The position numbers were made by a program, and so were the translations under genes. Under the pieces are notes generated by a model that saw only the letters and a program-made list of their open reading frames with translations, was not told the origin of the DNA and did not search any database. This document shows, piece after piece, positions 18,393-46,504 of a stretch of 64,000 bases of DNA (positions within the stretch are counted from its first letter, which is position 1; each line of letters begins with the position of its first letter). Source of the stretch: Owenia fusiformis (Eukaryota > Annelida > Polychaeta > Sabellida > Oweniidae); NCBI GenBank assembly GCA_903813345.2, contig CAIIXF020000002.1:28591223-28655222 (forward strand), in the 5' to 3' direction.

Positions 18393-20140
18393 CTAGTTTA
18401 ATACATTAAGTTGACCATGCTGCATAGACATGTGATTTAATAGCATATCGGATGATTGAAATTCTTTCAGACAGAGTTCACAATAAAATACCACGCCACT
18501 TTCACGTTTGCCTTCAAATCTCACTGTTTCTTTATCAGATGCAACCCCCTGTTTAACTTTGACAGATTTTCTCAATTGTTGTTCAGGAGAGCTTCCTCCA
18601 GATTTGTTATTACATGAATTGCCAGCACCATCGCCTTTATGTTGAGTAATACTATGCTTATTCAAGGCAGCCTTTTGAGAAAATTCTTTGTGGCAAATTG
18701 TACATTTGTACAGCTTCTCATGAGTGTGTCTAGTATTAAAATGATAGTTTAGAGCAGCCTTTTGAGTAAATCTTCGTGAACATATACTACATTTATAAGG
18801 TTTTTCACCTGTATGAATTCTTAAATGGTTAATAAGTATCTGTTTTTGTGTAAATCTACGCATGCAAATGCTACATTCATGAGGTTTTTCACCTGTATGA
18901 GTTCTTAAATGGTACACAAGTGCCTGTTTTTGTGTAAATCTACGCATGCAAATGCTACATTCATAAGGTTTTTCTCCTGTATGAGTTAGCAAATGAACTT
19001 TTAATGATTGTTTGTTACGCAACTTCTTTTTGCAGATAGTGCATGTTGTATTTTGTCCAGCAAATGTTTTAAAGTGTTTCTTTTTGCCAGCTCTATTTTC
19101 ATTACTTTCAGGCTCCTCTCGAAAATTACTCATTTTTACATTTTCCTGACTAAAAGTGTGCCCATCAGTCTGTCTAAATTTTTCAGAATATTTTTCACCT
19201 TCATAGTTTCTTTCATTAGATTTGTTTATCAAATTGGCATGATGTGTTCTCATGTGAAGCGGAAGAACATTTTTATATTTGAATTTCTTTTCACAAATCT
19301 CACATTGGTATTTCATTTTTGTATTTGGTACAACTGGTGCTTTGCTACTGGATTTAACTCCCATGGATTTAGTGGTGTGAACTCGCATATGGAGAAGTAA
19401 ATGGTTACTATATTTGAATGTTTTTGAACATATTTCACATTTAGAGTTCAATTCATTTCCAGCAATTGGCCCAGAAGTTTTGTGAATGAGCATCATATGT
19501 TGCTTGAGAACTTGCTTAATCCTAAAGCGCTTGGAGCATATTTCACAGCTAAAAGGCTTTTCACCTGTATGTGTTCGCAAATGATGTCCAAGTGATTGTT
19601 TAGAGCATAACACCTTGTAACAAATCTCACATCTAAAATCTTTCTTTGTAGTTATTGTCACTGTATCATTACTACATTCATCCTTGGCTTGACTTTCAAT
19701 TCTGATTGAATCATTGCTTGTTTCAATATCACTGTTATCTATATAACCTAATGGGGTGTCACATCTGTCAACTTCAGCCACAGACTCACAGGACACTATC
19801 TTTATACCTAATTTATTATCACTGTTATCTTTCCAATGCTCTTCAATAATTGAATCACCACCACCTTCACCATTGGGTTCAGTGTCCAACACTTTCTCTG
19901 TGCTTTTGAGGGAGTTAATGAGTGAATGTGTCTTCATATGGTCAACCAATGCATCATTGTTTTTGAAATAACATGCACATATACCGCATTCATATGTAGT
20001 CTCATTGGCCATGGTTTCACCTGGTTTGAAGGGTTGATTGGTGGTCTTTGATGCTTTGGCTGCAGCTGCTTCACTCTCAAGGTAGGCAGCATATTCATCA
20101 TCACAGAATGGTATTCTACCAGGATATGTTGGAAAACTTC
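18393..20140 (-). CDS. C2H2 zinc-finger terminal exon ZF1 (11 fingers)
   Basis: A single open exon of 582 codons begins right after an acceptor (tatattgcag) in phase 1, so its first codon is completed by a G from an upstream exon. The start GSFPTYPGRIPFCDDEYAAY matches the other three finger exons, and there is no upstream ATG in the homologous part. Eleven C2H2 fingers follow: an isolated atypical first finger (ECGICACYF), linked pairs with TGEKP linkers, a five-finger block, and a last finger QSSDMLLNHMSMQH. The exon ends soon after that finger, whereas ZF2 and ZF3 continue with six more. Function is inferred to be sequence-specific DNA binding in the nucleus. It probably belongs to the locus whose 5' exons lie at 44.3-46.4 kb; an independent gene with an unseen 5' exon is the alternative. 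Confidence 0.9.
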
Positions 20141-20182
20141 CTGCAATATATAAAATACTACAATACAAAACTATAATTTATT

Positions 20183-20354
20183 GAATGATTTGAAGTGCAA
20201 TACAGGATATATTGTGCTTGAGAAATTCTGTTCTGGCTTTTACTATTGAGAGCACAATATATCCTGTATTGTACTTCAAATCATTCTATGTTATCGTGTG
20301 ATCTCTGTATTGCTACTGAGATGATAAATGGGGACAATCTCAGTAGCAATACAG
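20183..20354. repeat. Two adjacent hairpins just upstream of the ZF1 acceptor
   Basis: Hairpin 1 (20,183-20,286) has about 36-bp arms starting gaatgatttgaagtgcaata. Hairpin 2 (20,304-20,354) has arms ctgtattgctactgagat and atctcagtagcaatacag. Both lie in the intron 43-214 nt before the ZF1 splice acceptor. Confidence 0.75.
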
Positions 20355-21634
20355 ATTGGTACAGCACAAGAACTGACCAAATAGATGGCTTCATTTTACG
20401 GAACAGACGACAAAAAGATTTACAGATTGAAAAGTACTGTAACATCAACATTAAAGAAACATGATCTTAGGCATTATTTATATTATTATTTATTTTTCTC
20501 AACTTTTTAATGTTACAATCTATAAGTGTATGATTGTTTTCTATGATCTTCTTAAGTTAGTAAAAGTAATTTCAAAATATTCCGTAAAAGACCAGACATT
20601 ATATGGGAAAGTATTGTAGACAGTCATAAATGTGATAAAAATGAAAACAGCAAATACCATGTTATTTTAATAAATCCATTTTGCCGATTAGTTTCAACCT
20701 AATTTTGATCATCATTCTACCTTTGAAAAAATTACAAATCTCTTGATGCAATAAAGATGAGAAAACAAGATCATCTTTGAAGAAATCATGACATATTGAA
20801 AATATGTTGAGGTAAGGTCCTAAGCTATAGAGCCAGATTAATGACTCAATACTACTGCTTGTCGAGTTTCTAAAGCTTTTGAAAAATTGAATCATTTTTA
20901 CAATGATGTTTTTAGAAACTGGATCAAGATTACATGGCATTCTACACAGATGTATCCTTAATCCTCTATAATTCATTATAGATGTGAATGGTATATTCTT
21001 GTCTTAAAGCAATACAAGTCTGTAAGCAGTACACCAATATAGACTTTTTATTCCCTTTGTAACCACAAACATGGTATTTAACAAACAAAATGTCACCAAC
21101 CACCATTTTTTATAGATGCCAAATGCCTGACAGCATGTGACAAATGTAGTTACAAAAAAGGAGAACATAACAACAAAACAAAGTAATATAATATTCTAAA
21201 CTGAAGTAATTTTTATTTTCCTTTTAAAACAATAGGTAATATCTTATACATTGTCTGCTGAGCATAATACTTTATTTTTCAACTACAGTTTTGTAAAATA
21301 ATTTACTTCATACATTGTTATAATACATGATTGTACATTGCTTTATAAATGAAGATACCCTTGTATATTATAATCTTCATAAATGAGGGTGATAATTGTA
21401 TATTGCCTTATAAATTAAGACAACCTCTCAAAACAGAAATGACATTAGTTGTTAAAATGTGTTTTATTATATGTGTAGACACAGTTAGGTATCTTGACAA
21501 TATATGGTTTTATTATGCACCTCATTAAAATATTCAAATCTAATTGGTTAAGAGCTGCAGGGTCTATTGCCATACGTGGCAGCAAGATCTCGTTCTATCC
21601 AGTATTGAAGCAACGAGATCTCCAACCATCCCGT
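20355..21634. other. Intronic spacer, part of the ZF duplicon
   Basis: No exon is supported. Positions about 20,690-20,830 are homologous to 27,005-27,140 upstream of ZF2 (shared cattctacctttgaaaaa and aaatatgttg..gta), showing that the tandem duplication unit included upstream intron. Confidence 0.5.
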
Positions 21635-22033
21635 ATGCCAGAATACCTATCCTCGAAAAAAATACTTTCGGCGAGTCTATTTGTCGATGACGTCATTTTC
21701 TTAGAATCTCCTCCATGTTGAATTTGAGATGAATGCGAGGGAGAAATGATTTGCGTGATATGAGAGAATGAGATTTTTGTTCAATTTCCTGTGATTAACT
21801 GACAAAAGGTAGGTGGCGCTAGATAAGGCATCGGCCAAACTTATTATATATGGAGGGAATACTTAAAATATAAGGCCAAATGAGAGAATAAATGGAATTT
21901 TTGATTGTCACCAGGGTTTTTAGAGTATAGACTCGGCTTCTGTTTAAGTAGACCCATTCATTCTCTCGAAAAGAAATACTAGGCTCGGCTTCGCCTCGCC
22001 TAGTATTTTTTCCTCGGATAGGTATTCTGGCAT
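21635..22033. mobile_element. MITE of about 400 bp, atgccagaatacctatcc family
   Basis: The left end atgccagaatacctatcctc and the right end gaggaaaaaatac...ggcat in reverse are inverted copies of about 31 bp. The interior has a GC-rich hairpin (ctaggctcggcttcgcctcg). No coding. Confidence 0.75.
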
Positions 22034-22079
22034 ATTCACCTCATGGTCATCCAGTATTTGTTTAGTATATTGCTTTCTA

Positions 22080-23450
22080 AATCAAGCCAACACATACTTG
22101 TTTTCTAAAACAAGATTAAAACATTGATATACATTTGTACAGTTAGGCACTCTTTCAATATGATTGTAGATTATTTTATAAATCAAGGCAATGCCTTTGG
22201 ATATAAAACAACATATGTTTTGCTAAAACTTAGATTATATGTGTGTATTTATACATGTGTATTGCTAAAATCAAGGCAACATGTCCTTGTTTTCAAAAAC
22301 AAGATTAAATATTGATATATGTACAGTAAGGCTCTCATCCAATATATTATTGTATATTGTTTACAAATTCGGATTGCATTTGTTATTGAAGCTTGTTTCC
22401 AAAACTAAGATTACAGTTTGGCAATCTTGCAATATATGTGATTGTAGATCCCTTAAACTAAGGCACTGCTCTTGTTTACAACACTGCGATTACATGTTTC
22501 GCTAAAGCTAAGATCACATGTGTAGATACAGTTAAGTACTCCTGCTATATTTGATTGTATTGTATTGCTAAAATCGATGCAAAGTGTCGTTGTTTTCAAA
22601 AACAAGATTAAATATTATTATACACAGTTAGGGGCTTGGTCAATGTTTCAATGTCCATCAAAAACATAATTTATTTAATTAGGTCTTTAACCTCCCCCCC
22701 CCCCATCCTCCTCCTAACGAAAGTCAAATTGATTCACCCACAGTATAAACAAGTCAAAATGTTGATTTGCATACAGCATACAAGTACAAGCCCAGCATAC
22801 AATATCTACTTCTGCTTTAAACAACACATCAAATTCTCTAGCTGTTGCATATTTAACGATTATACCATTGCAGAAGATTAATATCTGGGAAACTAAAAAA
22901 CAATGTCCGTCACCCAATTAAATGGGGCTTTACCCCCTCCCTAAAGTTATTTATTACGTTTTTTGAGGGACATTGAAATATTGACCCAGCCCCTTAGGTA
23001 CTCTGACAATATATGATTGTATATTTCTTTTAAAATCAAGGCAACATGTAAGATTTCAAAAATAAGATTAAATATTGATATATACACAGATACTCTTGCA
23101 ATATATGATTGTATTCTTTCATTAAATAAAGTGGATGCCCTTGTTTACAAAACTGGGATTGCATGTGTTGTTAAAGTTTGTTTCCAAAACTAGATTGCAG
23201 TCAGGCAATCTTGCAATATATGTGATTGTAGATTCTATAAATTAAGGCATTGCCCTTGTTAACAAAATTGAGATTACATTTTTACTAAAACTAAAACTAA
23301 GACCACATGTGTAGAAACAGTTAGGTGCTCTTGCTATATTTGATTGTACATGTGTATTGCTAAAATCAAAGCAATATGTCCTTGTTCTCAAAAATAAGAA
23401 AATATTGATCATACACTGTTATGCTCTCTTGCAATATACGTATGTTTGTA
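22080..23450. repeat. Degenerate tandem repeat, roughly 95-100 bp unit
   Basis: The recurring order is acagttaggcactcttgcaa, tatatgattgtata, ttgctaaaatcaaggcaa, then catgtccttgttttcaaaa and acaagatta. About ten diverged units are visible, interrupted by the MITE at 22,629. A related single motif occurs at 21,480-21,520. Confidence 0.6.
22629..22997. mobile_element. MITE, taggggcttggtcaat family, copy 1
   Basis: The ends taggggcttggtcaatgttt and atattgacccagcccctta are inverted repeats extending about 50 bp with mismatches. A poly-C run is internal. It is inserted in the 97-bp tandem repeat. A related copy is at 62,123. Confidence 0.65.
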
Positions 23451-24400
23451 AATGGTTTCTCTGGAATTTGGACAAGATTCATGGAAAAATTCAAAATGGC
23501 CACCAAGCAATTTACCGAGCATGCCCTGTACCTAATCTTATCTTGACACTCAGAGTTTGCTCTTACATGTGTAAAAAATTCAATTTGGATGGATGAGTTG
23601 CTTTCTTGGAATTTTTATGACAAGATCTATGAAGAAATTAAAAATGGCCACTAAGTAATTTACACAGCATGCCCTAAATGTTATTAGATCTTGATACTAG
23701 TCTGCCCTTGCATCAAGTTGAACAGGTAACCAGTTATTGATTTAAGTGAGGCAAACGCACTCATCCATCCGCACGTACATCAGCTCAAGATGTCGACAAT
23801 AAAGCACTTTTTTAAAGTGTGATAAAAATCATAGGTCATCAACTTCATTTTTCATAATTGCTCTTTAGAAAATATGCTTTTTGTCTAATATATTTAAGAA
23901 ACAAAGACAGATTTTATGATTTATGGCGTAATATATGACCGAAAATTTTATTCTGTTCATTGTCTTTGGCAATTGCCAGAATAAAATTTGACATACATCA
24001 TAAACTTGAGGTCATTGTTACGATTCTAATATGATAATAAACAGACAAGAAACACAACTATTTACATTCATGAATTTTAGCGGTCAAACATACTCCAATA
24101 TAGAGCAACAAATCAATTGTTCTAGTTCTAGTTATTGTGATGTCACATATCATACGAGCTCGTATTAGAATGTCTTTTATATGCAAGTGCAACTTAAATA
24201 TATTAAAATGCCATTACTATGCATAATTCATTAAATCCATCAAAATCATACATCAATATAAAAGTAAAAACTCACTTTCCAAAATCTCAAAATGTAAATG
24301 TCCTGATTATATTAACTTTCCACTTTTTCAACATATTAAGACCATTCTTATAGTGGTGCCATAATAACAAAACCATAGTGAATGATGATGATAATTCAGC
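23451..24400. repeat. 3' flank of ZF2, duplicated as the 3' flank of ZF3
   Basis: This segment aligns in blocks with 28,675-29,178, for example aaattcaaaatggccaccaa, cattaaaatgccatta and caatgtcctgattata. The duplication unit that created ZF2 and ZF3 therefore carried several hundred bases of 3' sequence. No gene is seen in it. Confidence 0.7.
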
Positions 24401-26487
24401 TTATTCATAAGGGTGATGCTTTCTTCTATGATACCACACACTGCTCTTATGAGCAAACTTCATATGACAAATTGTACAACTGTAAGGTTTCTCTCCAGAG
24501 TGAATCACCAAATGTGATTGCATATTTTCCTTAGTGTAGAACAATTTGCTGCAAACTTCACATGGAAACCTCTTACCTTCTCTATTATGAGTTTGTAAGT
24601 GATTGTCCAAAAGAGTTTTTGTAATGCTACTATAGGCGCAAATGCTACATTTAAATGGTTTCTCACCAGTATGGCGTCTATAGTGAATTTTGAGTGAAGT
24701 AGAAGAGCTCAAATATTTACCACATACGTCACATTTGTATGATGTATGTTTATTTGAGTTGCTCATATTTACAGAGCTGGGTCCATGATTGAAATCCATG
24801 TGATATCTCATGTTTTGTTTAGTGTAGAAATGTTTCTGGCAAATATTACAAGTGAATGGTTTTTCACCTGTATGTCTTCTCATATGATAAGTAAATGACA
24901 ATTTTGTCGAGCACACTTTTTTACATATTTCGCACGTGTGAGATACTGGTTTTCTTTTTCTTCTGTTTTTGGAAGTTCTAGCAGTTTCAGGTATTTTATT
25001 CAGAAACAAAGGCTCAAAATGATGAAGATTGTGTTTGTGAGATTGTGACTTTATGTTATGTTCTGAGTGCTGCATTGATATGTGTTTTAAAAGCATATCA
25101 GAAGATTGGAATTCTTCATGACATCGATCACAATAAAGTTCTTGGCTTCTTTCACTTTTGGGTTCAAATGTTATAGCATTTTCACCTGTTGCTATTTGAC
25201 ATGCTGAATTGTCAGGTTCTCTCAAATAGTTCTTCGGGGATTTATCACCTTTATGTTTAACAATATCACATTTAAGTGAATGTGCAATTAAAGACTTCTT
25301 ACGAGCAAACTTACTTGAACAAACAGTACATTCATAAGGTTTTTCACCTGTATGAATTCTTAAATGATTAATAAGAATATGCTTGTATGCAAACCTATGT
25401 AAACAAACACTACACTCATAAGGTTTTTCACCTGTATGGACTCGCATGTGATATTTTAGTGACTGTTTGCTACTTAATGTCTTCTTGCAGACTTCACATG
25501 TTGTATTGAGTCCAATTGGGGTTTTCTGGATGTTTTTCTTGCTAGTTTTGATATTTGAAGGATTACCTGTGTTTTTAACACTTACAGGGACATCACAGTT
25601 ACTCAAAGTAAGACTGAAATTTTCACTGACCTGACTTTTGTTGTGCTCGTTGATCTCACTTTGCGAATATTTTGCATTTGCACCTTTTTTATCTGATTTA
25701 TTTGTGAGTGTATTATGACGTGTTTTCATGTGAAGTGGCAGCACATTTTTGTATTTAAACCTTTTGTGACAAATCTTACATTCATATGGCTTCATTTTTG
25801 TGTCAGATTCACATTCACTGCTAAATTCACTCCCACTATTATGTTGTTCAGAAATTTTGTGTATGTGGAACATATGATATTTCAGACTTTGTTTTGCTGT
25901 AAAACACTTATAACAAATCTCACATTTAAATTCTTTTCTTGCAGTAATTGTCACTTCATCATTTTTATATTTGTCCTTGGCTTGATGATCAATTCCGTTT
26001 AAAACATTGCTTGTTTCACTATCACTGTTTTCTAAACAACCTAATGGGGTGTCACATCTGTCAACCTCAGCCATAGACTTACAGGACACTATCTTTATAT
26101 CTAAACTATTTTCACTGTCATCTCTTTTATGCTCTTTCATGATTAAACATTCTTCATCATCAGGTTTGGTGTTCAACACTTTCTCTGTGCTTTTGTAGGA
26201 CTTAATGAGTGGTGCTGTTAAATGTTTTTTGTGTATCTTCATATGGTCTACCAATGTATCATTGCTCCTAAAATAAGTGGTACAAACACCACACTCAAAT
26301 GCAGTTTCAATTGTCCCAGTATAAACTGTTTCAATTGTCCCAGTATGACCTGTTTCAATATGACCAGTTTTAGTGTGCTGATTTTTGGTGTTGGTTGCTT
26401 TGGCTGCAGCTGCGGCCGCTTTACTCTCTATGTAGGCAGCAAAGTCATCATCACTGAATGGTATCTTAGAATGTGTTGGGAAAGTCC
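24401..26487 (-). CDS. C2H2 zinc-finger terminal exon ZF2 (13 fingers)
   Basis: One open exon of 695 codons follows a phase-1 acceptor (tctttcag). It starts GTFPTHSKIPFSDDDFAAY and an Ala-rich stretch (SKAAAAAAKATNTKNQ), as in ZF1, ZF3 and ZF4. Thirteen fingers follow: an atypical first finger (ECGVCTTYF), six in the middle (one ending HSLKC, so C2HC), then a C-terminal block of six (CEICKKVC to HRRKHHPYE). Apart from finger 1, the fingers up to QSSDMLLKHISMQH correspond to those of ZF1, while the last six are shared only with ZF3 and a decayed fragment at 34.3 kb. It is probably a DNA-binding isoform end of the locus starting at 46.4 kb. The first Met in frame is too deep, inside finger 1, for an independent start. 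Confidence 0.9.
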
Positions 26488-27264: not shown

Positions 27265-27380
27265 GTTATGTCACTATCGTGGCATATATGCCCGAGGTCT
27301 CAGTGATATATGGCCCGACCTTGGGAGGGACATTGATCTCTGAGAACCGAGGGCAAATGTGCCACGATAGTGACATAAAC
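27265..27380. mobile_element. 116-bp hairpin element with gttatgtcactatcgtggca arms
   Basis: The ends gttatgtcactatcgtggca and tgccacgatagtgacataaa are near-perfect inverted repeats. The interior holds gcatatatgcccgaggtctc. The 52,853-52,969 hairpin has the same layout. Confidence 0.75.
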
Positions 27381-27385
27381 GATTT

Positions 27386-27633: not shown

Positions 27634-27754
27634 AATATTCTTTATTTAGTTAGTTTATTCTTTATTTATTCTTCTTAACACCTTTCTCCTACTTCCAACT
27701 AACTTTTTACTATCTCCTAAATGCACCTTCCAGGGACCTTGGTTAAACTTGGCA

Positions 27755-29178: not shown

Positions 29179-32162
29179 TTAATTAGGGTGATGCTTTCTT
29201 CTATGATACCACACACTGCTCTTACGAGCAAACTTCATATTACAAATTGTACAGCTGTGGGGTTTCTCCCCAGAGTGAATCACCAAATGTGATTGCATAT
29301 TTTCCTTAGTGTAGAACAATTTGCTGCACACTTCACATGGAAACCTCCTACCTTCTGTATAATGAGTTTGTAAGTGATTGTCCAAAAGCAGTTTATTAAT
29401 GCTACTATAGGCACAAATGCTACATTTAAATGGTTTCTCACCAGTATGACGTCTATAGTGAATTTTGAGTGAAGTAGAAGAGCTCAAATATTTACCACAT
29501 ATGTCACATTGGTATGGTGTATGTTTATTTGAGTTGCTCACCAAACTATTTACAGAGCTGGGTCCATGATTGAAATCCATGTGATATCTCATGTTTTGTT
29601 TAGAGTAGAAACGTTTCTGGCAAATATAACAAGTGAATGGTTTTTCACCTGTATGTCTTCTCATATGATATTTAAGTGACAATTTTGTTGCGCACACTTT
29701 TTTACATATTCCACATGGTTGAGATACTGGTTTTCTTTTTCTTCCTTTTTTTAAAGTTTTAGCAGTTATAGGTATTTTGTTCAGAAACAAAGACTCAAAA
29801 TGATGAAGATTGTGTTTGTGAGATTGTGACTTTGTCTTATTTTCTGAGTGCTGCATTGATACGTGACTTAAAAGCCTATCAGAAGATTGGAATTCTTCAT
29901 GACATAGATCACAATAAAGTTCTGGGCTTATTTCACTTTTTGGTTTAAATGTTTTTGCATTTTCACCTGATGTCACGTGACATGCCGTATTGTCAGCTTC
30001 TCTCAAATATTTCTCCATAGATTTCCCACCTTTATTTTTAACAATATCGCATTTAAGTGCATGTGCAATTAAGGACTTCTTGTAAGCAAATCTTCCAAAA
30101 CAAATAGTACATTCATAAGGTTTTTCACCTGTATGGGTTCTGGTATGAGTGCGAAGTGTTGTATTTTTTCTAAATCTTCGTAAACAAATAGTACATTCAT
30201 TAGGTTTTTCACTTGTATGGGTTCTGGTATGATCCCGAAGTGTGGTTTTTTTTCTAAATCTTCGTAAACAAATAGTACATTCATAAGGTTTTTCACCTGT
30301 ATGAGTTCTTATGTGATCCTGAAGAGTATTCTTTTTTCTAAATCTTCGTAAACAAATAGTACATTCATAAGGTTTTTCACCTGTATGAGTTCTTATGTGA
30401 TACTGAAGAGTATTCTTTTTTCTAAATCTTCGTAAACAAATAGTACATTCATAAGGTTTTTCACCTGTATGAGTTCTTATGTGATCCTGAAGAGTATTCT
30501 TTTTTGTAAATCTTCGTAAACAAATAGTACATTCATAAGGTTTTTCACCTGTATGAGTTTTTATGTGATACTGAAGAGTATTCTTTTGTCTAAATCTTCG
30601 TAAACAAATAGTACATTCATAAGGTTTTTCACCTGTATGAGTTCTTATGTGATCCTGAAGAGTATTCTTTTCTCTAAATCTTTGTAAACAAATAGTACAT
30701 TCATAGGGTTTTTCACCTGTGTGAGTTTTTGAATGCTGGAGTAGATTGTATTTGCGTGCAAATTTACGTAAACAAATAGTACATTCATAAGGTTTTTCAC
30801 CTGTGTGAGTTTTTGAATGCTGGAGTAGAATGTGCTTCTGTGCAAACTTACGTAAACAAACAGCACATTCATAAGGCTTTTCACCTGTATGAGTTTTTGA
30901 ATGCTGGATGAGAATGTTCTTCTGTGCAAACTTATGTGAGGTAGTACATTCATAAGGTTTTTCACCTGTGTGAGTTTTTAAATGGTTGAGTAGACTAGTC
31001 TTCTGTGAAAACTTACGCAAACAAACAGTACATTCATAAGGTTTTTCACCTGTGTGAGTTCGTGAATGCTGGATTAAAACTTGCTTGTGTGCAAACTTAT
31101 GTGAACAAACACTGCACTCATAAGGTTTTTCACCTGTATGGACTCGCATGTGACATTTTAGTGAATATTTGCTACTTAGTGTCTTATTGCAGACTTCACA
31201 GGTTGTATTTAGTCCGTCCAGAGTTTTCTTGCTAGCTTTAACATTTGGAGAATAATCTGTATTTTTAACACTAACAGGGACATCACAATTACTCACAGTG
31301 AGATTGGGATTTCCACAGACCTGACTTTTATTGTGCTCATTGATCTTACTTTGTGAATCTTTTGCACTTGCACCTTTTTTATCAGATTTATTTGTGAGTG
31401 TATTATGACGTGTTTTCATGTGAAGTGGCAGCACATTTTTGTATTTAAACCTTTTGTGACAAATCTTACATTCATATGGCTTCATTTTTGTGTCAGGTTC
31501 ACATTTACTGCTGAATTCACTCCCACTAATATGTTGTTCAGAAATTTTGTGTATATGTAACATATGATATTTCAGGCTTTGTTTTACTGAAAAACACTTG
31601 TAACAAATCTCACATTTAAATTCTTTCCTTGAAGTAACTGTCACTTCATTGTTTTTACATTCATCTTTGGCTCGACTATCAATTCTGTTTGAATCGTTAT
31701 TTGCTTCACTATCAGTGTTATCTATATAATATAATGGGGTGTCACATCTGTCAACTTTAGCCATAGACTCACAGGACACTACCTCTATATCTAAATTAAC
31801 ATCTCTGCCATATATTCTATGCTCGTCCATAATTAAACATTCACCATCATTTCCATCAGGTTTGGTGTTCAACCCTTTCTCTGTTCTTTTGTGAGAGTTT
31901 ATCAGTGGTGCTGTTAAACATTTCTTATGTATCTTCATATGGTCTACCAATGTATCATTGCTCCTAAAATAAGTGGTACAAATACCACACTCAAATGTAG
32001 TTTCAATTGTCCCAGTATGATCTGTTGCAATATGACCAGTTTTGACTTGCTGATTTTTGGTGTTGGTTGCTTTGGCTGCAGCTGCAGCTGCTTTACTGTC
32101 AAGGTAGGCTGCATAGTCATCATCACAGAATGGTATCTTACTAGGATAAGTTGGAAAAGTCT
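29179..32162 (-). CDS. C2H2 zinc-finger terminal exon ZF3 (24 finger units)
   Basis: One open exon of 994 codons follows a phase-1 acceptor (tatttcag). It starts ETFPTYPSKIPFCDDDYAAY followed by the Ala-rich stretch. Twenty-four finger units are visible: four leader fingers, a long central array with TGEKPYEC linkers, and the C-terminal six shared with ZF2. One unit (YECTTSHKFAQKN) has lost a codon and its second zinc Cys and is probably non-functional. Seven consecutive units (about 30,110-30,700) are nearly identical 84-bp repeats that differ mainly at predicted base-contact positions -1 and 6 (K/E/Q and D/Y). The exon is the expanded sister of ZF2. With the common 5' exons the isoform would be about 1,280 aa. 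Nuclear DNA binding is inferred. Confidence 0.9.
30105..30700 (-). repeat. 84-bp zinc-finger unit array inside ZF3
   Basis: The period is exactly 84 bp, one finger plus linker. Adjacent units share long identical runs such as acattcataaggtttttcac and aaatcttcgtaaacaaatag. This is recent homogenisation or duplication within coding sequence. Confidence 0.85.
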
Positions 32163-34612: not shown

Positions 34613-36933
34613 CTAGCTAAAGCCCATGTGAGACCCCCCCCCCCCCTACAGATCTCCCCAAAAGCACATGAACATTCTAAAGGTCTATCACTGGTATTCA
34701 TTATTCATAAGAGATACATGTCTATACAAATAGTATTCTGTGATAACTATTTCAATATATAAAACCCTTCACAATATGTGATTTTGCTACTGTTAGCTTT
34801 CATAAGCAGCTGACATAAACTTCAAACTCCCATGTAAGATCAAGGCAACTTCTTCTAGGATCATTTTGATCTTGTCTCTGAGAGTCAAACTATTTCCACT
34901 TCCTATGATCCCAGATCTAGCACCTGTACATAGCCAATGCACACAAGCCTCTGGTGTTAATCATCCCAGACCTAGCATCTGTACCTAGCCAATGCACACA
35001 AGCTTCTTGTGTTAATGATGCCAGATCTAGCATCTGTACATAGCCAATGCACACAAGCCTCTTGTGTTAATGATGCCAGATCTAGCACCTGTACATAGCC
35101 AATGCACACAAGCTTCTTGTGTTAATGATGCCAGATCTAGCATCTGTACATAGCCAATGCACACACGCCTCTTGTGTTAATGATCCAAGACCTAGCATCT
35201 GTACCTAGCCAATGCACACAAGCTTCTTGTGTTAATGATGCCAGATCTAGCATCTGTACATAGCCAATGCACACAAGCCTCTGGTGTTAATGATCCCAGA
35301 TCTAGCACCTGTACATAGCCAATGCACACAAGCCTCTTGTGTTAATCATCCCAGATCTAGCACCTGTACATAGCCAATGCACACAAGCCTCTGGTGTTAA
35401 TCATCCCAGACCTAGCATCTGTACATAGCCAATGCACACAAGCCTCTGGTGTTAATGATCCTAGATCTAGCACCTGTACATAGCCAATGCACACAAGCCT
35501 CTGGTGTTAATGATCCCAGATCTAGCACCTGTACATAGCCAATGCACACAAGCCTCTGGTGTTAATGATCCCAGATCTAACTCCTGTACATAGCCAATGC
35601 ACACAAGCCTCTGGTGTTAATCATTCCAGATCTAGCACCTGTACATAGCCAATGCACACAAGCTTCTGGTGTTAATGATGCCAGATCTAGCATCTGTACA
35701 TAGCCAATGCACACAAGCTTCTTGTGTAAATGATGCCAGATCTAGCATCTGTACATAGCCAATGCACACAAGCCTCTTGTGTTAATCATCTCAGATCTTA
35801 CACCTGAACATAGCCAATGCACACAAGCCTCTGGTGTTAATGATCCCAGATCTAGCACCTGTACATAGCCAATGCACACAAGCCTCTGGTGTTAATGATC
35901 CCAGATCTAACTCCTGTACATAGCCAATGCACACAAGCCTCTGGTGTTAATCATTCCAGATCTAGCACCTGTACATAGCCAATGCACACAAGCTTCTGGT
36001 GTTAATGATGCCAGATCTAGCATCTGTACATAGCCAATGCACACAAGCTTCTTGTGTTAATGATGCCAGATCTAGCATCTGTACATAGCCAATGCACACA
36101 AGCCTCTTGTGTTAATCATCTCAGATCTTACACCTGAACATAGCCAATGCACACAAGCCTCTGGTGTTAATGATCCCAGATCTAGCACCTGTACATAGCC
36201 AATGCACACAAGCCTCTGGTGTTAATGATCCCAGATCTAGCACCTGTACATAGCCAATGCACACAAGCCTCTAGTGTTAATGATCCCAGATCTAGCACCA
36301 GTACGTAGCAAATGCACACAAGCCTCTGGTTTTAATGATCCCAGACCTAGCATCTGTACATAGCCAATGCACACAAGCCTCTGGTGTTAATCATCCCTGA
36401 TCTAGCACCTGTACATAGCCAATGCCCACAAGCCTCTGGTGTTAATGATCCCAGATCTAGCACCAGTACGTAGCCAATGCACACAAGCCTCTGGTTTTAA
36501 TGATCCCAGACCTAGCATCTGTACATTGCCAATGCACACAAGCCTCTTGTGTTAATCATCTAAGATCTTACACCTGAACATAGCCAATGCACACAAACCT
36601 CTGGTGTTAATGATCCCAGACCTAGCATCTGTACATAGCCAATGCACACAAGCTTCTTGTGTTAATGATGCCAGATCTAGCATCTGTACATAGCCAATGC
36701 ACACAAGCCTCTTGTGTTAATCATCTCAGATCTTACACCTGAACATAGCCAATGCACACAAGCCTCTGGTGTTAATGATCCCAGATCTAGCATCTGTACA
36801 TAGTCAATGCACACAAGCCTCTTGTGTTAATCATCTCAGATCTTACACCTGAACATAGCCAATGCACACAAGCCTCTGGTGTTAATGATCCCAGATCTAG
36901 CATCTGTACATAGCCAATGCACACAAGCCTCTA

Positions 36934-37389
36934 GCCTTGCCCAAGTCGGTATTTTTTTACTTATCTGATCTTGAATTATTACCGCCTTGTACAATCCAAT
37001 ACACCTGCGCTGATATTATGCAGAGTTATTCAACGGTTTCGAGATTTCCATAATACCTACGCTATCGGGGGTATTGCGAAACCTTATTAATTAACAGATA
37101 TACGCGCGGACAGTCTGTACACGACGTGTGACTTCAGGCTGATTGACCAATCAAAAACGTTATCAGGTTGACCTGCATAAGCAAAGCAATCTTCCCGATT
37201 TGAAATTCAATGCCGATGATCTGATCGATCGTTTCTTTAGAGTTACAATATATAATGTAATTAAATGTACATAGGGAATGTAAGAGTCATTAATATAAAT
37301 TAAATCATGCAATAGATTTAAAACTGATTTCGCGATGAAAATGCAAGACCGAGTCCAATGTAGCGGGTCATGTAGACGATCAGTGATTG
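36934..37389. mobile_element. MITE inside satellite, truncated copy
   Basis: Matches the first 456 bp of the complete copy at 37,795 with only about four substitutions, then stops abruptly at cagtgattg where satellite resumes. The right terminal repeat is missing. Confidence 0.85.
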
Positions 37390-37794
37390 CCAATGCACAC
37401 AAGCCTCTGGATTTAATGATCCCAGACCTAGCATCTGTACATTGCCAATGCACACAAGCCTCTTGTGTTAATCATCTCAGATCTTACACCTGAACATAGC
37501 CAATGCACACAAACCTCTGGTGTTAATGATCCCAGACCTAGCATCTGTACATAGCCAATGCACACAAGCTTCTTGTGTTAATGATGCCAGATCTAGCATC
37601 TGTACATAGCCAATGCACACAAGCCTCTTGTGTTAATCATCTCAGATCTTACACCTGAACATAGCCAATGCACACAAGCCTCTGGTGTTAATGATCCCAG
37701 ATCTAGCATCTGTACATAGTCAATGCACACAAGCTTCTTGTGTTAATGATGCCAGATCTAGCATCTGTACATAGCCAATGCACACAAGCCTCTA

Positions 37795-38616
37795 GCCTTG
37801 CCCAAGTCGGTATTTTTTTACTTATCTGATCTTGAATTATTTCCGCCTTGTACAATCCAATACACCTGCGCTGATATTATGCAGAGTTATTCAACGGTTT
37901 CGAGATTTCCATAATACCTACGCTATCGGGGGTATTGCGAAACCTTATTAATTAACAGATATACGCGTGGACAGTCTGTACACGACGTGTGACTTCAGGC
38001 TGATTGACCAATCAAAAACGTTATCAGGTTGACCTGCAAAAGCAAAGCAATCTTCCCGATTTGAAATTCAATGCCGATGATCTGATCGATCGTTTCTTTA
38101 GAGTTACAATATATTATGTAATTAAATGTACATAGGGAATGTAAGAGTCATTAATATAAATTAAATCATGCAATAGATTTAAAACTGATTTCGCGATGAA
38201 AATGCAAGACCGAGTCCAATGTAGCGGGTCATGTAGACGATCAGTGATTGAATCTCAGCCTACATGTTCATTTGAATACAGCGATCGTTTCAACGTTTAT
38301 TGTTGAAATCTTCTCACCTCCAGTTACCGATCGATGCTCCGGCACCCACTAAACTCTGATTGATATTTATCTGATAAAATATTTGTATTTTCATGAAGAA
38401 TTCATGCAAGTTTGTTCGTGAAAAGTCCCGGCAAAAAGTAAAAAGTGTACTTGTTTTTGACCGTGCATAATAATGAGCTAACGCTGCAGGGCCGTCGTTG
38501 ATTGGTCAAATTTTACCGACATAAACATTGAGTCGGTAAAGCACGTGGCTTTCTCTTTGGTACAAGGCGGTCATAATAGAAATCAAGATAATAAAAGAGA
38601 CCGACTTGGGCAAGGC
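37795..38616. mobile_element. MITE inside satellite, complete 822-bp copy
   Basis: The ends gccttgcccaagtcggtatt and accgacttgggcaaggc are inverted, and the inner parts (cttgaattatt..ccgccttgtac against gtacaaggcggtcataatag) extend the match to about 58 bp. TA flanks both ends. There is no transposase. A solo end-to-end derivative lies at 15,752. Confidence 0.85.
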
Positions 38617-39051
38617 TAACAAGCCTCTTGTGTTAATCATCCCAGATCTAGCACCTGTACATAGCCAATGCACAAAAGCCTCTTGTGTTAATCATCCTAG
38701 ATCTAGCACCTGTACATAGCCAATGCACACAAGCCTCTGGTGTTAATGATCCCAGACCTAGCATCTGTACATAGCCAATGCACACAAGCTTCTTGTGTTA
38801 ATGATGCCAGATCTAGCATCTGTACATAGCCAATGCACACAAGCCTCTTGTGTTAATCATCTCAGATCTTACACCTGAACATAGCCAATGCACACAAGCC
38901 TCTTGTGTAAATGATCCCAGATCTAGCACCTGTACATAGCCAATGCACACAAGCCTCTTGTGTTAATCATCCCAGACCTAGCACCTGTACATAGCCAATG
39001 CACACAAGCCTCTTGTGTTAATCATCCCAGATCTAGCACCTGTACATAGCC

Positions 39052-39165
39052 AATGCACACAAGTGGCTTATAATGCTTCATTGCAAAGCCGCAACATGTG
39101 TATGTAATAATTCTATTTTACTATGAAATAAATCATAAAAAAAAAAAAAAAAAAATGCACACAAG
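39052..39165 (+). mobile_element. Poly-A retroinsertion in the satellite
   Basis: About 70 bp of non-satellite sequence (39,064 on) contains aataaa about 10 bases before a run of about 20 A. It is bounded by the direct repeat aatgcacacaag on both sides (39,052-39,063 and 39,154-39,165). These are the marks of LINE-type target-primed insertion of a truncated polyadenylated transcript. Confidence 0.85.
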
Positions 39166-39780
39166 CCTCTGGTGTTAATGATGCCAGATCTAGCATCTGT
39201 ACATAGCCAATGCACACAAGCCTCTGGTGTTAATGATCCCAGATCTAGCATCTGTACATAGCCAATCCACATAAGCCTCTTGTGTTAATCATCCCAGATC
39301 TAGCACCTGTACATAGCCAATGCACACAAACCTCTGGTGTTAATGATCCCAGATCTAGCACCTGTACATAGCCAATGCACACAAGCCTCTGGTGTTAATA
39401 ATCCCAGATCTAGCATCTGTACATAGCTAATGCACACAAGCCTCTTGTGTTAAATCATTCCAGATCTAACACCTGTACATAGCCAATGCACAAAAGCCTC
39501 TTGTGTAAATGATCCCAGATCTAGCACCTGTACATAACCAATGCACACAAGCCTCTTGTGTTAATCATTCCAGATCTAACACCTGTACATAGCCAATGCA
39601 CAAAAGCCTCTTGTGTAAATGATCCCAGATCTAGCACCTACACATAGCCAATGCACACAAGCCTCTTGTGTTAATGATGCCAGATCTAGCACATGTACAT
39701 AGCCAATGCCCACAAGCCTCTTGTGTTAATCATCCCAGATGTAACACCTGTACATAGTCAATGCACACAAGCCTCTGGTG

Positions 39781-42282
39781 TTAAAGTGGATAAGATGGAA
39801 GGGACAAGAGACTTGAGGCAAGACTAGAATATGGGTTTGTGTTAAGATCTGAGTGCTGCATAGACATGTGATTTAATAGCATATCAGAGGATGTGAATTC
39901 TTCGCGACATAAATCGCAACGAATCGATGTGTCACTTCTATGTTGAGGTTCAAATGTTTTAGCATTTTCACCTGATGCCCTTTGACTTGCTAAAGTACCA
40001 TATTCTCGAAAATAGTTCTTCATAGGTTTACCAACTCTACGTTTAAAAGTACCACATTTATATGCATGTACAATCAGAGACTGTTTCTGCGCAAACTCTC
40101 TGTAACAAAACAAACATTTGTAGCGATCTTCAGCTGCTGTATGAATTCTGATGTGATTATCCAGTGCAAACTTTCTACCAAATCTTTGTAAACATAAATT
40201 ACACTCAAAGGGTTTTTCACCAGTGTGAGTTCTTAAATGATGGATAAGAACTTGCTTGAATGTAAACTTCCGTAAACAAATGCTACACTCATAAGGTTTT
40301 TCACCTGTATGGACTCGCATGTGACACTTTAGTACACTTTTGTTACTTAATGTCTTCTTGCACACTGGACATGTTGTAATTTGCATACAGGGTGGTATTT
40401 GGAGGTTTATCTTATCAGCCATAATGTCTAAAGCACCATATGTATTTTCAACATTTAGAGGGAGATTACAACTATTTTCAATTTTCTGATGTTTATAAGT
40501 CTCACTTTGTGAAGTGTAATCATCTCCACTTTTTGTATCTTTAAGTGTATCATGTGTTCTACCAGACTTATCTGTGAGTGTTCCGCTTTTTCTGTCATAA
40601 TTATCTGTGAGTGTTTCATGTGTTCTATCAGATTTATCTGTGAGTGTATCATGTGTTCTACCAGATTTATCTGTGAGTGTATCATCTGTTCTACCAGATT
40701 TATCTGTGAGTGTATTGTGTGTTCTACAAGATTTATCTGTGAGTGTATCATGTGTTCTATCAGATTTATCTGTGAGTGTATCATGTGTTCTACCAGATTT
40801 ATCTGTGAGTGTATCGTGTGTTCTACAAGATTTATCTGTGAGTGTTCCACTTTTTCTGTCATATTTATCTGTGAGTGTATCATGTGTTCTATCAGATTTA
40901 TCTGTGAGTGTATCATGTGTTCTACCAGATTTATCTGTGAGTGTATCGTGTGTTCTACAAGATTTATCTGTGAGTGTTCCACTTTTTCTGTCATATTTAT
41001 CATTGAGTGTATCATGTGATCTTACAGATTTATCTGTGAGTGTATCATGTGTTCTATCAAATTCATCTGTTGGTGTATGGTGTGTTCTTTCAGACTCATC
41101 TGTGAGGGTATTATGATGTCTTCTCATGTGAAGTGGCAGCACATTTTCGTATTTAAACCTTTTATGACAAATCTTACATTGATATGGCTTTATTTTTGTT
41201 TCAGATGCCTTGGCTGAATATATTGGACTTATTTCTTCATTTTCTTTCATATTCCTAGCTTGTTTGTCATTTGTATTTCTTTTGATTCCATGTCCTTTCA
41301 ATCTACCTGTGTGCAATTTCATGTGATTTAATAAGTGACTTCTGAATTTGTATGATTTGGGACATAAATCACATTTATTGCGTTCATTCCTATTATTATA
41401 TTTTAGAGAAATCTTATGTACATGTAACATATGGTAACTCAGGCTTTGCTTTACTGTGAAACACTTTGAGCATATTTCACATTGATTGCTGAATTCACTC
41501 CCACCATAATGTTGCTCAGAAATCTTATGCACATGTACCATATGATATTTCAGTCTTTGTTTTGATGTAAAACACTTTGAGCATATTTCACATTTATTGC
41601 TGGATTTACTCCCATTATTATGTTGTTCATAATTGTTGTGTATATGGGACATATGATATTTCAGACTTTGCTTTACTGTAAAAAATTTGGAGCATATTTT
41701 ACATTCAAAAGGTTTTTCTCCAGAGTGATTCTTGACATGATAATCCAATCCTTGTTTAGAGCCAAACATCCTGTGACAAATCTCACATTTAAGATCTTTC
41801 TTTGTAGTTATTGTCACTTCATCTATTTTACATTCATCCTTGGCTTGACTATCCATTCTATTTGAAACATTTCTTGTTTTCCTATCAATGTTATCTATAA
41901 TTATGACCTAATGGGGTGTCACATCTTTCAACTTCAGCCATAGACTTCCAGGACAGTATATTAATATTCACATTATTGTCACTGTTATCTCTCCTATTCT
42001 CTTCAACAATTAAATCATTACCACTTTCAAAATCAGTTCCAGCATTCAACACTTTTTCTGTGCTTTTGTGAGACTTAATGAGTGGTGCTGTTAAAATTTT
42101 AATTGTCCCAGTATAATCTGTTTTGATTGTCCTCCTATGACCTGTTTCAATATGGCCTGTTTTGAAGTGGTGATTTTTGGTGTTGATTGCTTTGGATGCT
42201 GCTGCAGCTGCTTTACTCTCAGGGGAGGCAGCATAGTTATCATAACACAATGGTATTTTACCGGAATATGTTGGAAAAGTTC
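39781..42282 (-). CDS. C2H2 zinc-finger terminal exon ZF4, frameshifted (probable pseudo-exon)
   Basis: The exon begins after a phase-1 acceptor (tctgtttcag) with GTFPTYSGKIPLCYDNYAAS and the Ala-rich stretch. The first frame (42,282-41,891) stops after CDTPLGHNYR. A 4-bp insertion near 41,900, compared with ZF1, shifts it, and the paralogous sequence continues in another frame (41,856-39,781, up to 691 codons). Finger 1 of the paralogues is cleanly missing. Eleven other fingers remain intact: six leader fingers, then 17 tandem 11-residue repeats, four fingers and the QSSDM-type finger (here TSSDMLLNHMSMQH). The TAA stop lies exactly at the satellite junction. It may still be expressed as a truncated isoform; the long preserved second frame argues that inactivation is recent. 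Confidence 0.75.
40548..41108 (-). repeat. 33-bp coding minisatellite in ZF4 (17 units of 11 residues)
   Basis: The protein unit is RTHDTLTDKSG with variants DRKSGTLTDKS and CRTHDTLTDKS. A four-unit (132-bp) higher-order block is repeated. Because 33 is divisible by three, several frames on both strands stay open across it; those antisense frames are artefacts. ZF2 and ZF3 have a single NTLTNKSDKK at the same position. Confidence 0.9.
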
Positions 42283-42922
42283 CTGAAACAGAATAATCCA
42301 TCTGAGGCTTGTGTATTGTAATTACCAAAGGGCCACTAATGATCTTATATCTACCAAACGTCCGAAGATGATATTAAAAATGTTATTGTTTTATTGGATA
42401 AATAAAATATTCTGAAATTACAATATTATAAATTTATCTTTATTTGTTTATTTATTTACATAAACATTTCCTTAAGGTGACACTGATAATAGGGTGCATA
42501 AATGGTTACTTACATGTGATGTGTAGGCTAAAACGCTGCATTTCTGTCAATTTAAAACTAAAATAAGTCTAAAAGCATTAACATATAGGCCTAAAAGATA
42601 AGCATAGCATGGAGTTTATATAATCTTATAAATACCATAGTTATGCCCCCCCCCCGCCACATTCAGAAATTGTGTATTGTACCACAATAACCTATTAAAT
42701 TTTGCAATATTTAGGGAGCTGGTGAATACTTCAGTTATGGGAGTGGGGAATTTATCCTCAGGTGTTGTAGAATATGTAGATCTCTCTTCTGCAAACTTGA
42801 CTCTTTATCGCAAGTTTTCTGAATGATAGATTTCTTTATTCGAGTGCCCTTTAAGACTTGATTCCCAATTCAGATCTCACTTTATAATCTGGAGCCTGTT
42901 CTTGTTTTGTTTTTAGTAAGAT

Positions 42923-45900
42923 TCATAAAGATATTAACGATTCAAAAAGGTTTGCTTTCCTCGTGACTGGTTTACTCTTCGATGTTTTCTTTTTCTTGCT
43001 GTGTTCGAGTGTAACAACTTTTGGTCCTTCCTCTTCGACATTTGTGCATACATATTCATATGTTATGTACGACTTGGATTTGATTTCTGATTTAGTTTTG
43101 TTTCTTGCACGTTTGGTCCAGAAAGCTGTGAAATATGACGTCATCCGATTCGTAAGTCTGGCTGAACCATTGTGGACTGATGATCGATTTTCGAATATTG
43201 TACAGAAATGGTCAATTCGCAATTCGTAACTCTTTCACAACATTTATTACATTACAAAAGTCTAAATGTAAAGTGTGTTCATGGGATAAAATAGATAAAG
43301 CTTCAAATGTTAAGTGTATCTGATCAAGCATGAAAAAAGCTACCATACTTCAATTGTTAAGTGTATCTGATCAAGCAAAAAATAAGTATCATACTTCAAT
43401 TGTTAAGTGTATCTGATCAAGCAAAAAATAACTACCATACTTCAAATGTTATGTGTATCTGATCAAGCAAAAAATAACTACCATACTTCAAATGTTATGT
43501 GTATCTGATCAAGCATGAAGATAGCTACCAATTTACTTCAAATGTTATGTGTATCTGATCAAGTATGAAGATAGCTCCCATACTTCAAATGTTAAGTGTA
43601 TCTGATCAAGCATGAAAATAGCTACCATACTTCAAATGTTAAGTGTATCTGAGCAAGCATGAGAAAAGCTTCCATACTTCAAATGTTAAGTGTATGTGAT
43701 CAAGCACAAAATAACTACCATACTTCAAATGTTATGTGTATCTGATCAAGCATGAGAAAAGCTTCCATACTTCAAATGTTAAGTGTATGTGATCAAGCAC
43801 AAAATAACTACCATACTTCAAATGTTATGTGTATCTGATCAAGCATGAAAATAACTACCATACTTCAAATGTTAAGTGTATTCGATCACGCATGAAAATA
43901 ACTACCATACTTCAAATGTTATGTGTATCTGATCAAGCATGACAATAGCTACAATACTTCAAATGTAAGTGTATCTGATCAAGCATGAAAATCAAGCAAC
44001 CATACTTCAAATGTTAAGTGTATGTGATCAAGCAAAAATATCTACCATATTTCAAATGTTAAGTGTAAATTGATCAAGCGAGAGGTAATGAGAGGTAAAC
44101 TATCAATAACAAGAGGTAGAAATAAACTACCATAACTAATAACTTCAAATGTTGTGAAGAGGTAAAAAACTATAATGTTTCAAATATTATGTATTTAAGC
44201 AATCAAACATTAAAATGCCATCATGTTAAGTTTAGTTTTCAAGATGAGAAATCTTAGTGAAATTCCTGTAGTATGGAAATTAAGTTTTGCAAAACTATGA
44301 TGAATGGACTTACCTGTCCCTCTCAGTGGTCCACTAAAGGAAGGAAATGCAGATGTGGCACTATCAACTTCACAAGCTGTATCATCATCTTCATCATCAT
44401 CGTCAAGTTTTATCACAACGGGTTCCTGTCTGGTGCCACTTTCTGTAGAAGTATGTGGTTTATCGCTTGGTTCATCAGCTTTGGCATTATGAACGGGTGC
44501 AGCAAAATTGTTGAGATTATTGATCAAGAAGTTAGGTTTACTGAAGTCTGGTGGATTGTGAAGATTATTTGATGGCATATTTTGGTTCACTCCACTAGAA
44601 TTATTGAAACTGTTGGTTTTACATTGAAGTTTACTGGTAATGTCTTGTCTTATGTGTCCACTTCCTTGGATTGAATCTGAAAAGTTAGAAACTAACTATA
44701 GAAATGTTCATGAGGATTAAAGGCAAAATCAGATCTATAGGGAGTGACAAAATGACAAGAAACATGTACAGTTTACATACCGATACTAAAGTTTGTATTC
44801 CTTACGATCTCTAATATAATATACAAAAAGATTTGTTATCAATTGGTGAAGTTGTTAAAGTTTCAAAGTGCAAAAATGGGGAAAATTTGGGGAATTTTCC
44901 CATAATAAAATAATGTGATAACCTGGTGATATTTATAGAAAAAATGAATTATAGAATTATAGAAGAAGAAATAAAGTATAATTGGGGAGTTTTAGAAAAA
45001 AGACTTGACAAGGAATGATATGAGCCAAAAATTTCTAAAATTGAAACAATTTTTGTCACGTCTACTCCTGTACTTAGGGCCTTGAATCATGCTAGATCTG
45101 ATACTACCTTTAAGTTAAGACTTTTTGTCAATTTTTTGCGTAATATGTAGATAAAGAGAAAGAAAACATTCTGTGGAGTGAATGCAAGTTGTCCTTGGTA
45201 AATCCACTACTTTTAACTGACAATCCTGGTTGTTATTCTTTGTTCAAAGCTGAAACGTCGGATAGGAAACTAAACTGGCATTTGGCCCCCATCCCGAAAC
45301 TAGATTTATTCAGCTTCCCATCAGAAAGCCTCCCCTTATTGCACTTACCTTGCTGAGCTATGTTGCTATCCGTCTTTGGCTTTACAGGTGAATCTTTCTC
45401 AAGGTCAATTACAACAGTTGGCTCGTGCTTGATGCAAGTGAGATCTTCATCAACTGTGCTGCTTGATGGCACTGAATGATCTCGATTTGAATCCAGCGAT
45501 TGTGCTGATGTGATTTCACTGTAAAGACCCTGATTGAGCTGCTTCTGCCCTGAAAATAAAAAACGAAAAAAGTTAAAACATAGTTTGGTCTCAGTTTAAA
45601 GCGGTTATATAACTGAAGATCTCAAAATAACTTTACAACAATGTGTGTATGTAAAATGACCATGACAGAATAATGTGTCCTCATTGAGTCAAAAAGTTGC
45701 TGTTACCAACTTGTTTTTACTTGTAGCTAAAAAGCATTTTGCTCATTGATATTGGGGAATAGGTTTGGTTTTCTGAAGAACTGAACTAAAGGGTATTATT
45801 ATGTACCAAAGTGTAACAAAAAAATGTATTAATGAAAATACCAATACTCGAAATGCCATTATACAAAATATGTGTCCATATTCATAATAATCTAAATAAA

Positions 45901-46382
45901 TAATAAAGAGTATGATATCACATAAAACTGAAACAATGTCAAAGTATTGCTCGTAGACGTTTATGCATTGAGCCACCTTTTGCCAGTGACAGAGTTGGCA
46001 GTCACAAAGTTACGAAAAGAATTTAAAGATTAAAATCAATTTACAAATAATATAAGTGTAGTAGTATTCTACAAATAGAATAGTATTACGTACCTGCTTC
46101 TCTTGTTTTTTCTGATACAGCTTTGTATCCATTAAGACTACTAGGAGAAAGCTGATGCTCAGATTTCTTGTTATCTCTTCCAGACAAAGTGTGGTGAATC
46201 TTCACAACTATATCATGTCTTGTCTGTACAGACATACATATAATGCCATCTATCTGCAACTGTCCCTGGGTAAGATCATCAAATAGGCTGCTCTGGCGAC
46301 AAAGCTTCACAACACTGTCCTGAATTCCTTTCGACAATACACTGATTGGTCCTTGCATGGCGGCTGGTATAATATCCATCAT
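42923..46382 (-). CDS. Common 5' exons of the zinc-finger locus, with a short basic terminal exon
   Basis: Exons are 46094-46382 (from ATG), 45349-45549, 44314-44676 and 42923-43125. All internal junctions are phase 1, giving 351 aa. Residues 17-66 form a domain shared with the plus-strand gene at 56.1 kb (IQDSVVKLC, then QIDGIICMS, then HDIVVKIHHTL); I do not recognise it as a named family. Residues 136-139 (IKHE) fit a SUMO-acceptor motif. VVIDLE (142-147) and VVIKL followed by eight Asp/Glu (250-262) look like SUMO-interacting motifs. The last exon ends in a Lys-rich, NLS-like segment and a stop. The donors of exons 1-3 could equally join the four zinc-finger exons downstream. Exon 1 begins at an acceptor (46,407), so more 5' sequence exists. 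Which ATG is used is uncertain. Confidence 0.75.
43290..44090. repeat. Tandem repeat, about 47-bp unit, about 16 copies
   Basis: The unit is ccatacttcaaatgttaagt, gtatctgatcaagcatgaaa, ataacta. It lies in the intron between the 44,314 donor and the short terminal exon at 43,125. Confidence 0.9.
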
Positions 46383-46504
46383 TTGTGTTGAGAAGCCAAA
46401 ACAACTCCTAAAAATAAACAAAGTACACAATATGAATAATATAATACCATCAAGTAAAGTAGGGAGTTATATACCCTTTAGAAAGCTATTATGTGTTTTT
46501 TATG

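Follow-up and report, generated by a model that had tools for sequence, protein, structure and literature searches.

Within a 64,000-nt stretch of the genome of the annelid Owenia fusiformis (C2:28,591,223-28,655,222; hereafter the window, within a searched genome of 498 Mb), the minus strand carries three leader exons, E1-E3, that face a row of large zinc-finger exons, ZF1-ZF4, entered in one and the same phase. From this arrangement of exons and frames we consider it very likely that the locus is a single transcription unit, in which the leader exons are spliced in phase 1 to one of several zinc-finger ends. A sequence-only reading of the same DNA had proposed such logic by analogy with Drosophila lola, combined with an unrelated N-terminal domain. 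The locus supports the central idea well and its relatives support it more strongly, since relatives in the same genome repeat the layout, the phase and the position; the splicing is what the splice sites and frames predict. By sequence matching, the arrangement is wider than one locus: the leader domain occurs at 45 loci on chromosome C2, and the locus described here is a many-fingered member of that family.

Exon anatomy of the locus

The exons, with splice sites read from the sequence, are as follows.

46,094-46,407, minus strand: leader exon E1, with an ATG at 46,382, the N-terminal domain of ~60 amino acids (aa) and a phase-1 donor
45,349-45,549, minus strand: linker exon E2, 201 nt, 67 codons, symmetrical phase 1-1
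44,314-44,676, minus strand: linker exon E3, 363 nt, 121 codons, symmetrical phase 1-1, acidic end
39,781-42,282, minus strand: ZF1, acceptor intact, frameshift near 41,900, finger 1 missing
29,179-32,162, minus strand: ZF2, ~993 codons, 23 C2H2 motifs, phase-1 acceptor, no in-frame Met before finger 1
24,401-26,487, minus strand: ZF3, ~694 codons, 13 C2H2 motifs, phase-1 acceptor
18,393-20,140, minus strand: ZF4, ~581 codons, 11 C2H2 motifs, phase-1 acceptor

The donors after 46,094, 45,349 and 44,314 each leave a single G, which is phase 1, as the sequence-only reading had stated. Because the lengths of E2 and E3 are multiples of three, skipping either exon is frame-neutral, and any joining of E1, E2 or E3 to a finger exon would stay in frame. 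An acceptor-like site at 46,407 suggests an additional exon of 5′ untranslated region ahead of E1. E2 and E3 have no further match in the genome (E up to 0.1), and none of the E1-E3 frames matches Pfam. The hydrophobic-acidic stretches VVIDLEKDS and VVIKLDDDDEDDD in E2 and E3, together with IKHE, resemble what we take to be SUMO-binding and SUMO-acceptor motifs.

On the acceptor side, the phase-1 starts claimed for the four finger exons are all present: the CAG is intact at 42,282, 32,162, 26,487 and 20,140, with phase 1 in four of four. Pfam recognizes zf-C2H2 in ZF2, ZF3, ZF4 and the second of two ZF1 frames at 98-219 bits (cut-off 25.2), which places the arrays among the C2H2 zinc-finger proteins, and does not find it in the first ZF1 frame. 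The zf-C2H2 search of the whole genome scored 150 of 5,955 candidates, too few for a total count of fingers. ZF1 is split over two frames, 42,373-41,891 and 41,907-39,781, and its reading thus contains a frameshift near 41,900; the exon has probably decayed. A tiny intron was rejected as the cause of the frame change, the nearest GT...AG pairs being ~13-26 nt and too short (longer introns were not searched for). ZF1 also holds a 33/132-bp coding repeat (40,536-41,115), which gives an 11-residue THDTLTDKSDR-like repeat between finger groups.

It had further been argued that ZF2 and ZF3 both need an upstream exon. The open frame of ZF2 has no Met ahead of finger 1. ZF3 likewise has none from its acceptor to finger 1; its open frame, however, extends 65 codons past the acceptor on the upstream side and includes Mets there, so that the requirement is strict only for ZF2.

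The layout in relatives

Relatives were sampled by taking 10 kb from each of 14 leaders (of 51 loci), with three stretches extended. At least two finger frames lie on the leader's strand within 10 kb in 7 of the 14 (L040, L041, L043, L044, L046, L047 and L051), and the terminal frames of the sampled members are mostly short, with two to four fingers. The leader at C2:34,398,347 (minus strand) is followed by 35 finger frames within the next 70 kb. These span 58-232 codons from their phase-1 AG and contain one to seven C2H2 motifs; 32 of the 35 have a phase-1 acceptor over threshold and three have no acceptor over threshold. Among their 88 fingers there are 72 distinct contact quadruplets, and no two of the 35 frames have the same finger-contact signature. 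Gaps from a stop to the next acceptor range from 194 to 4,770 nt, several of them 194-500 nt; in gaps that short there is little space for each frame to have a promoter and first exon of its own.

All frames of 20 aa or more were searched with a hidden Markov model built from all 40 leader-domain sequences. The search found a single leader domain per region in 16 of 16 regions (in the window, its two known ones), and no further copy separates the ZF exons of the present locus or lies inside the 70-kb array. Strand and position were assessed with a two-finger query, which came from a C2 exon and favors that type; it gave 156 genome matches, not all listed, with 150 of 3,313 candidates scored. 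The listed matches include 94 short open frames (at most 250 aa) on C2 and one elsewhere. The nearest leader lies upstream and on the same strand for 91 of these 94 C2 frames, which are shared among 18 leaders and are not independent, 29 falling within one array; longer frames, including three C2 rows, were set aside. The three exceptions constitute one plus-strand array of two-finger ends at C2:32.257-32.271 Mb. The 10.1 kb just upstream of the readable DNA of that region (L064) consists of N, and a leader could lie hidden there.

Phase and start codons

The phase of the acceptors was examined in 16 regions. For every finger frame of 55 aa or more, a generic model that ignores frame scored the candidate acceptors ahead of finger 1, and the top-scoring one was taken. 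Among 65 zinc-finger frames this frame-blind procedure returned 54 acceptors in phase 1, three in phase 0 and eight frames without a site over threshold, that is, phase 1 in 54 of 57 scored frames, or 51 of 54 when the window locus is left out. Control non-finger frames from the same DNA were spread 56/56/52 over the three phases. On the leader side, the best donor candidate is in phase 1 in 13 of 16 leader frames, a count for which no control was run, and no donor exceeds threshold in 3 of the 16, among them the leader of the 34.398-Mb array.

Counts of Mets, substitution rates and polyadenylation signals were made on 63 frames of at least 75 aa having a phase-1 AG, with no score threshold; as this set was chosen by its phase-1 AG, it is unusable for testing phase. 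The list carries a wrong acceptor for ZF1 (41,894), and the substitution-rate rows of that exon were ignored. In 19 of the 63 terminal frames there is no Met anywhere in the open frame ahead of finger 1.

These counts bear on the idea that each terminal exon is a gene of one exon whose mRNA is capped through spliced-leader trans-splicing. The acceptors would then be trans-splice sites, and the family leader would serve only the first terminal exon. Such genes would have, as the terminal frames do, an acceptor and no further leader-domain exon upstream. Spliced-leader addition imposes no phase constraint, however, yet the scored acceptors are almost uniformly in phase 1; translation could not begin ahead of finger 1 in the 19 frames that lack a Met in that stretch; and 91 of the 94 listed short-frame matches sit downstream of a same-strand nearest leader. 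We regard the probability of this explanation as close to negligible.

Copy relations and constraint

Homology among the finger exons had been said to start exactly at the acceptor. This holds approximately for five of the six pairs among ZF1-ZF4, in which it begins 6-13 nt ahead of the exon, and fails for ZF2-ZF3, in which it reaches 83-88 nt into the intron. ZF2 and ZF3 also have pieces of their 3′ flank in common, and a single 33-nt patch, separate and lying further upstream, is common to ZF3 and ZF4. The linker of the ends has five genome matches, all within the four ZF copies; a search with the pattern of the linker start gave 74 matches vs 182 for the reversed control pattern and is uninformative.

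The ratio of nonsynonymous to synonymous substitution rates (Ka/Ks), with bootstrap intervals, is 0.60 [0.46-0.82] for ZF2-ZF3, 0.36 [0.27-0.46] for ZF2-ZF4 and 0.50 [0.38-0.64] for ZF3-ZF4, and the bootstrap values reach or exceed 1 in 1, 0 and 0 of 500 replicates, respectively. At other loci, 10 pairs with identity above 60% were found and six were bootstrapped; the interval lies below 1 in five of the six. At the 3′ ends, AATAAA occurs within 200 nt past the stop in 23 of 60 frames, compared with 21.5% of random windows (p 0.002).

Constraint bears on whether the additional terminal exons are mostly dead duplicates, with one working end (say ZF2) and the others relics. The state of ZF1, which is frame-shifted and has lost finger 1, would fit this, as would the fairly recent copying of ZF2 and ZF3 (Ks 0.17) and the presence in the large array of some frames with a single finger or without an acceptor above threshold. 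Against this, ZF2, ZF3 and ZF4 are open across 581-993 codons, their Ka/Ks values of 0.36-0.60 almost never reach 1 on resampling, and their acceptors are intact though most of the intron sequence has diverged. Wholesale decay of the ends is thus, in our judgment, highly improbable.

Weighing the single-unit reading

Several observations weigh against one leader serving many ends. ZF1 is broken, and the fifth terminal exon of the sequence-only reading, a short basic frame, looks repeat-derived; of the five ends once proposed, ZF2-ZF4 stand. Among the relatives, 2 of the 14 have a single finger frame (L045, with nine fingers, and L049, with six or seven), and 5 of the 14 have none in 10 kb (L039, L042, L048, L050 and L052); further downstream, past the 10 kb, short-frame matches do occur for L042 (five), L048 (one) and L050 (one). 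For three plus-strand matches at C2:32.266-32.271 Mb, the 10 kb to the right of 32,208,900 contains no leader. The three phase-0 acceptors fall in L043 (one, with a phase-1 AG 4 nt further on) and L040 (two). An in-frame Met occurs between acceptor and finger 1 in 35 of the 63 terminal exons, and ZF3 has Mets in its open frame upstream of the acceptor; independent starts are therefore possible for single exons. One of the nine bootstrapped pairs has a Ka/Ks interval that includes 1 (0.60 [0.25-1.64]), and the four pairs that were not bootstrapped give 0.78, 0.25, 0.48 and 0.33. Finally, the AATAAA excess is modest and fades in wider windows (29 of 59 vs 39.5% at 400 nt; 37 of 59 vs 52.1% at 600 nt).

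The in-frame Mets also fit a row of independent zinc-finger genes in tandem, every one having a promoter of its own and an unrecognized first exon, with the E1 gene comprising the nearest finger exon only. C2H2 families are commonly laid out as tandem clusters, and our search covered leader-domain exons, first exons of other kinds not having been searched for. Separate genes would account poorly for the phase-1 acceptors in 54 of 57 scored frames, for the several 194-500 nt gaps between exons of the large array, for the lack of any additional leader domain between exons and for the 19 of 63 frames without a Met before finger 1, and we consider this arrangement improbable. Each of the rival explanations covers part of the data; none jointly accounts for the phase, the absence of further leader domains, the short gaps and the constraint.

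Proposed mechanism and the head-to-head neighbor

If the locus is a single unit, a promoter at the leader would drive an RNA spliced from E3 (or from E1 or E2) to one finger end, the usable ends here being ZF2, ZF3, ZF4 and, formerly, ZF1. Each terminal exon would supply its own stop codon and 3′ end, with the RNA cleaved after the chosen end. The resulting proteins would pair a constant N-terminus, effector or oligomerizing, with different DNA-binding arrays; conservation and the comparison with BTB proteins suggest that the N-terminal domain is probably this common part. Joining would presumably be in cis rather than in trans, with the choice of end regulated. Terminal exons may multiply via tandem duplication inside the locus. 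Because of the common phase-1 join, a new copy of an end would be usable immediately without breaking the protein, and tandem copies such as ZF2-ZF3 may exist because the common phase permits local duplication.

A second leader of the same family lies head-to-head with E1 in the window.

56,099-56,498 (from the ATG), plus strand: leader exon E1′, with a phase-1 donor
57,037-57,267, plus strand: E2′, a candidate symmetrical phase 1-1 linker exon, splice sites read from the sequence
60,490-60,944, plus strand: two-finger terminal exon, phase-1 acceptor
62,551-63,158, plus strand: second two-finger terminal exon, phase-1 acceptor

The E1′ locus has these two finger ends inside the window and two more past its edge. 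Such pairing recurs on C2, where eight pairs of leaders lie less than 12 kb apart and all eight are divergent; when leaders were placed at random 10,000 times, divergent pairs averaged 0.17 and never exceeded three. A broader possibility is that any leader can be joined in frame to any end, be it inside one locus, between head-to-head partners, or in trans from one locus to another as at lola and mod(mdg4). C2 carries 45 leader loci and more than 100 zinc-finger terminal frames (a lower bound), nearly all of the scored ones in phase 1, and free joining would then allow DNA-binding isoforms in many hundreds of combinations. We think joining of this generality unlikely.

The leader-domain family

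The E1 protein has 39 other matches at E up to 0.001. A more typical member, used as query, yields 52 matches in the genome, and C2, which makes up 7% of it, holds 46 of them; as two C2 matches lie within one frame, these amount to 45 loci on C2 and 51 overall. Aligning 30 of the 40 leader-domain sequences (A1; the ten omitted are mostly close copies of others) reveals a domain of ~60 aa in which M, C, D, C, H and T are invariant.

Database searches gave this domain no name. Pfam offers no convincing family for the 30 members (best E 0.023, a restriction-enzyme family), and BTB is not among their Pfam matches at E up to 1. The KRAB box and the ZAD domain, both of which presumably have Pfam entries, likewise show no Pfam match in the E1-E3 frames or the 30 members. 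A profile search of Protein Data Bank (PDB) sequences returned nothing credible (best E 1.2). The AlphaFold2 model of the domain from the two window copies has a mean predicted local distance difference test score of 62 and consists of a helix followed by two strands; Foldseek found no PDB match to the model at E <=0.001 (best E 3), and we base no claim on it.

Comparison with known systems

The best-known cases of a constant N-terminus with alternative zinc-finger ends are a few BTB loci of insects. Among these, the Broad-Complex and fruitless join a BTB core to alternative zinc-finger pairs, which are about as large as the two-finger ends seen here among the relatives; these arthropod loci differ in having few alternatives and a BTB N-terminus. 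The KRAB and ZAD families also place a lineage-specific N-terminal domain on its own exon, followed by a zinc-finger exon, and have expanded in number. They differ in that each gene classically has one finger exon and in the identity of the N-terminal domain.

The layout found here, one constant leader with several same-strand, same-phase terminal exons downstream, is that of lola and mod(mdg4), as far as anatomy goes. The locus lola has 20 isoforms, 17 of them with different C-terminal C2H2 fingers, and mod(mdg4) has at least 30 isoforms with a constant N-terminus; the isoforms of both arise through trans-splicing (PMC11426971). The likeness to lola thus lies in the constant N-terminus and the many alternative C2H2 ends, known in our case from anatomy. 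In lola, however, the constant part is a BTB domain and there is one locus, whereas here the constant part is a domain of ~60 aa without a Pfam match, and 45 leader loci lie on one chromosome, one of them with 35 finger frames. Because BTB was not found, the locus is not a member of the lola family, though it is lola-like in layout. Its likeness to mod(mdg4) is the constant N-terminus with many isoforms; mod(mdg4), by contrast, combines a BTB N-terminus with mostly FLYWCH ends (PMC11426971), not the C2H2 ends found here.

Lola-like logic would here be paired with a domain that is uncatalogued and unrelated to BTB, in a gene family found mainly on one chromosome. The 35 C2H2 end frames of a single locus are about twice the 17 C2H2 isoforms given for lola. 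We found no description of such a family in the literature searched, coverage of which was partial. If transcripts bear the arrangement out, the strategy would have evolved here independently and at larger scale. Such ends may be split or overlooked in annotation, and the counting of these transcription factors would change as a result. The family would also provide a natural library for studying the control of terminal-exon choice and the swapping of DNA-binding modules under one effector.

Repeats and other features

The remaining minus-strand feature near the leader is the short basic frame noted above.

42,923-43,234, minus strand: frame of the "short basic exon," which resembles a dispersed repeat and is rejected as an exon

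The 67 aa following its phase-1 AG, used as query, have 77 other listed matches at an E threshold of 0.1, of which 17 also pass a threshold of 0.001; the matches are spread over C1-C12 and C124, and 27 contain internal stops. It is perhaps a remnant of a mobile element.

The intron between E3 and ZF1 contains a 47/93-bp tandem repeat at 43,301-44,079, with ~16 copies of the 47-bp unit. Between ZF1 and ZF2, at 34,905-39,784, three arrays of a 55-bp tandem satellite lie in DNA whose G+C is higher and whose composition is skewed. Elsewhere in the window, two similar minus-strand frames (1,875-2,210 and 9,262-9,633) have by eye the look of what we take to be death-like domains, and their surroundings appear duplicated (compare 3,815-4,399 and 11,071-11,358). 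Outside the window, homeodomain matches at C1:17.97-18.96 Mb form a same-strand run with one member set apart, a likely Hox cluster.

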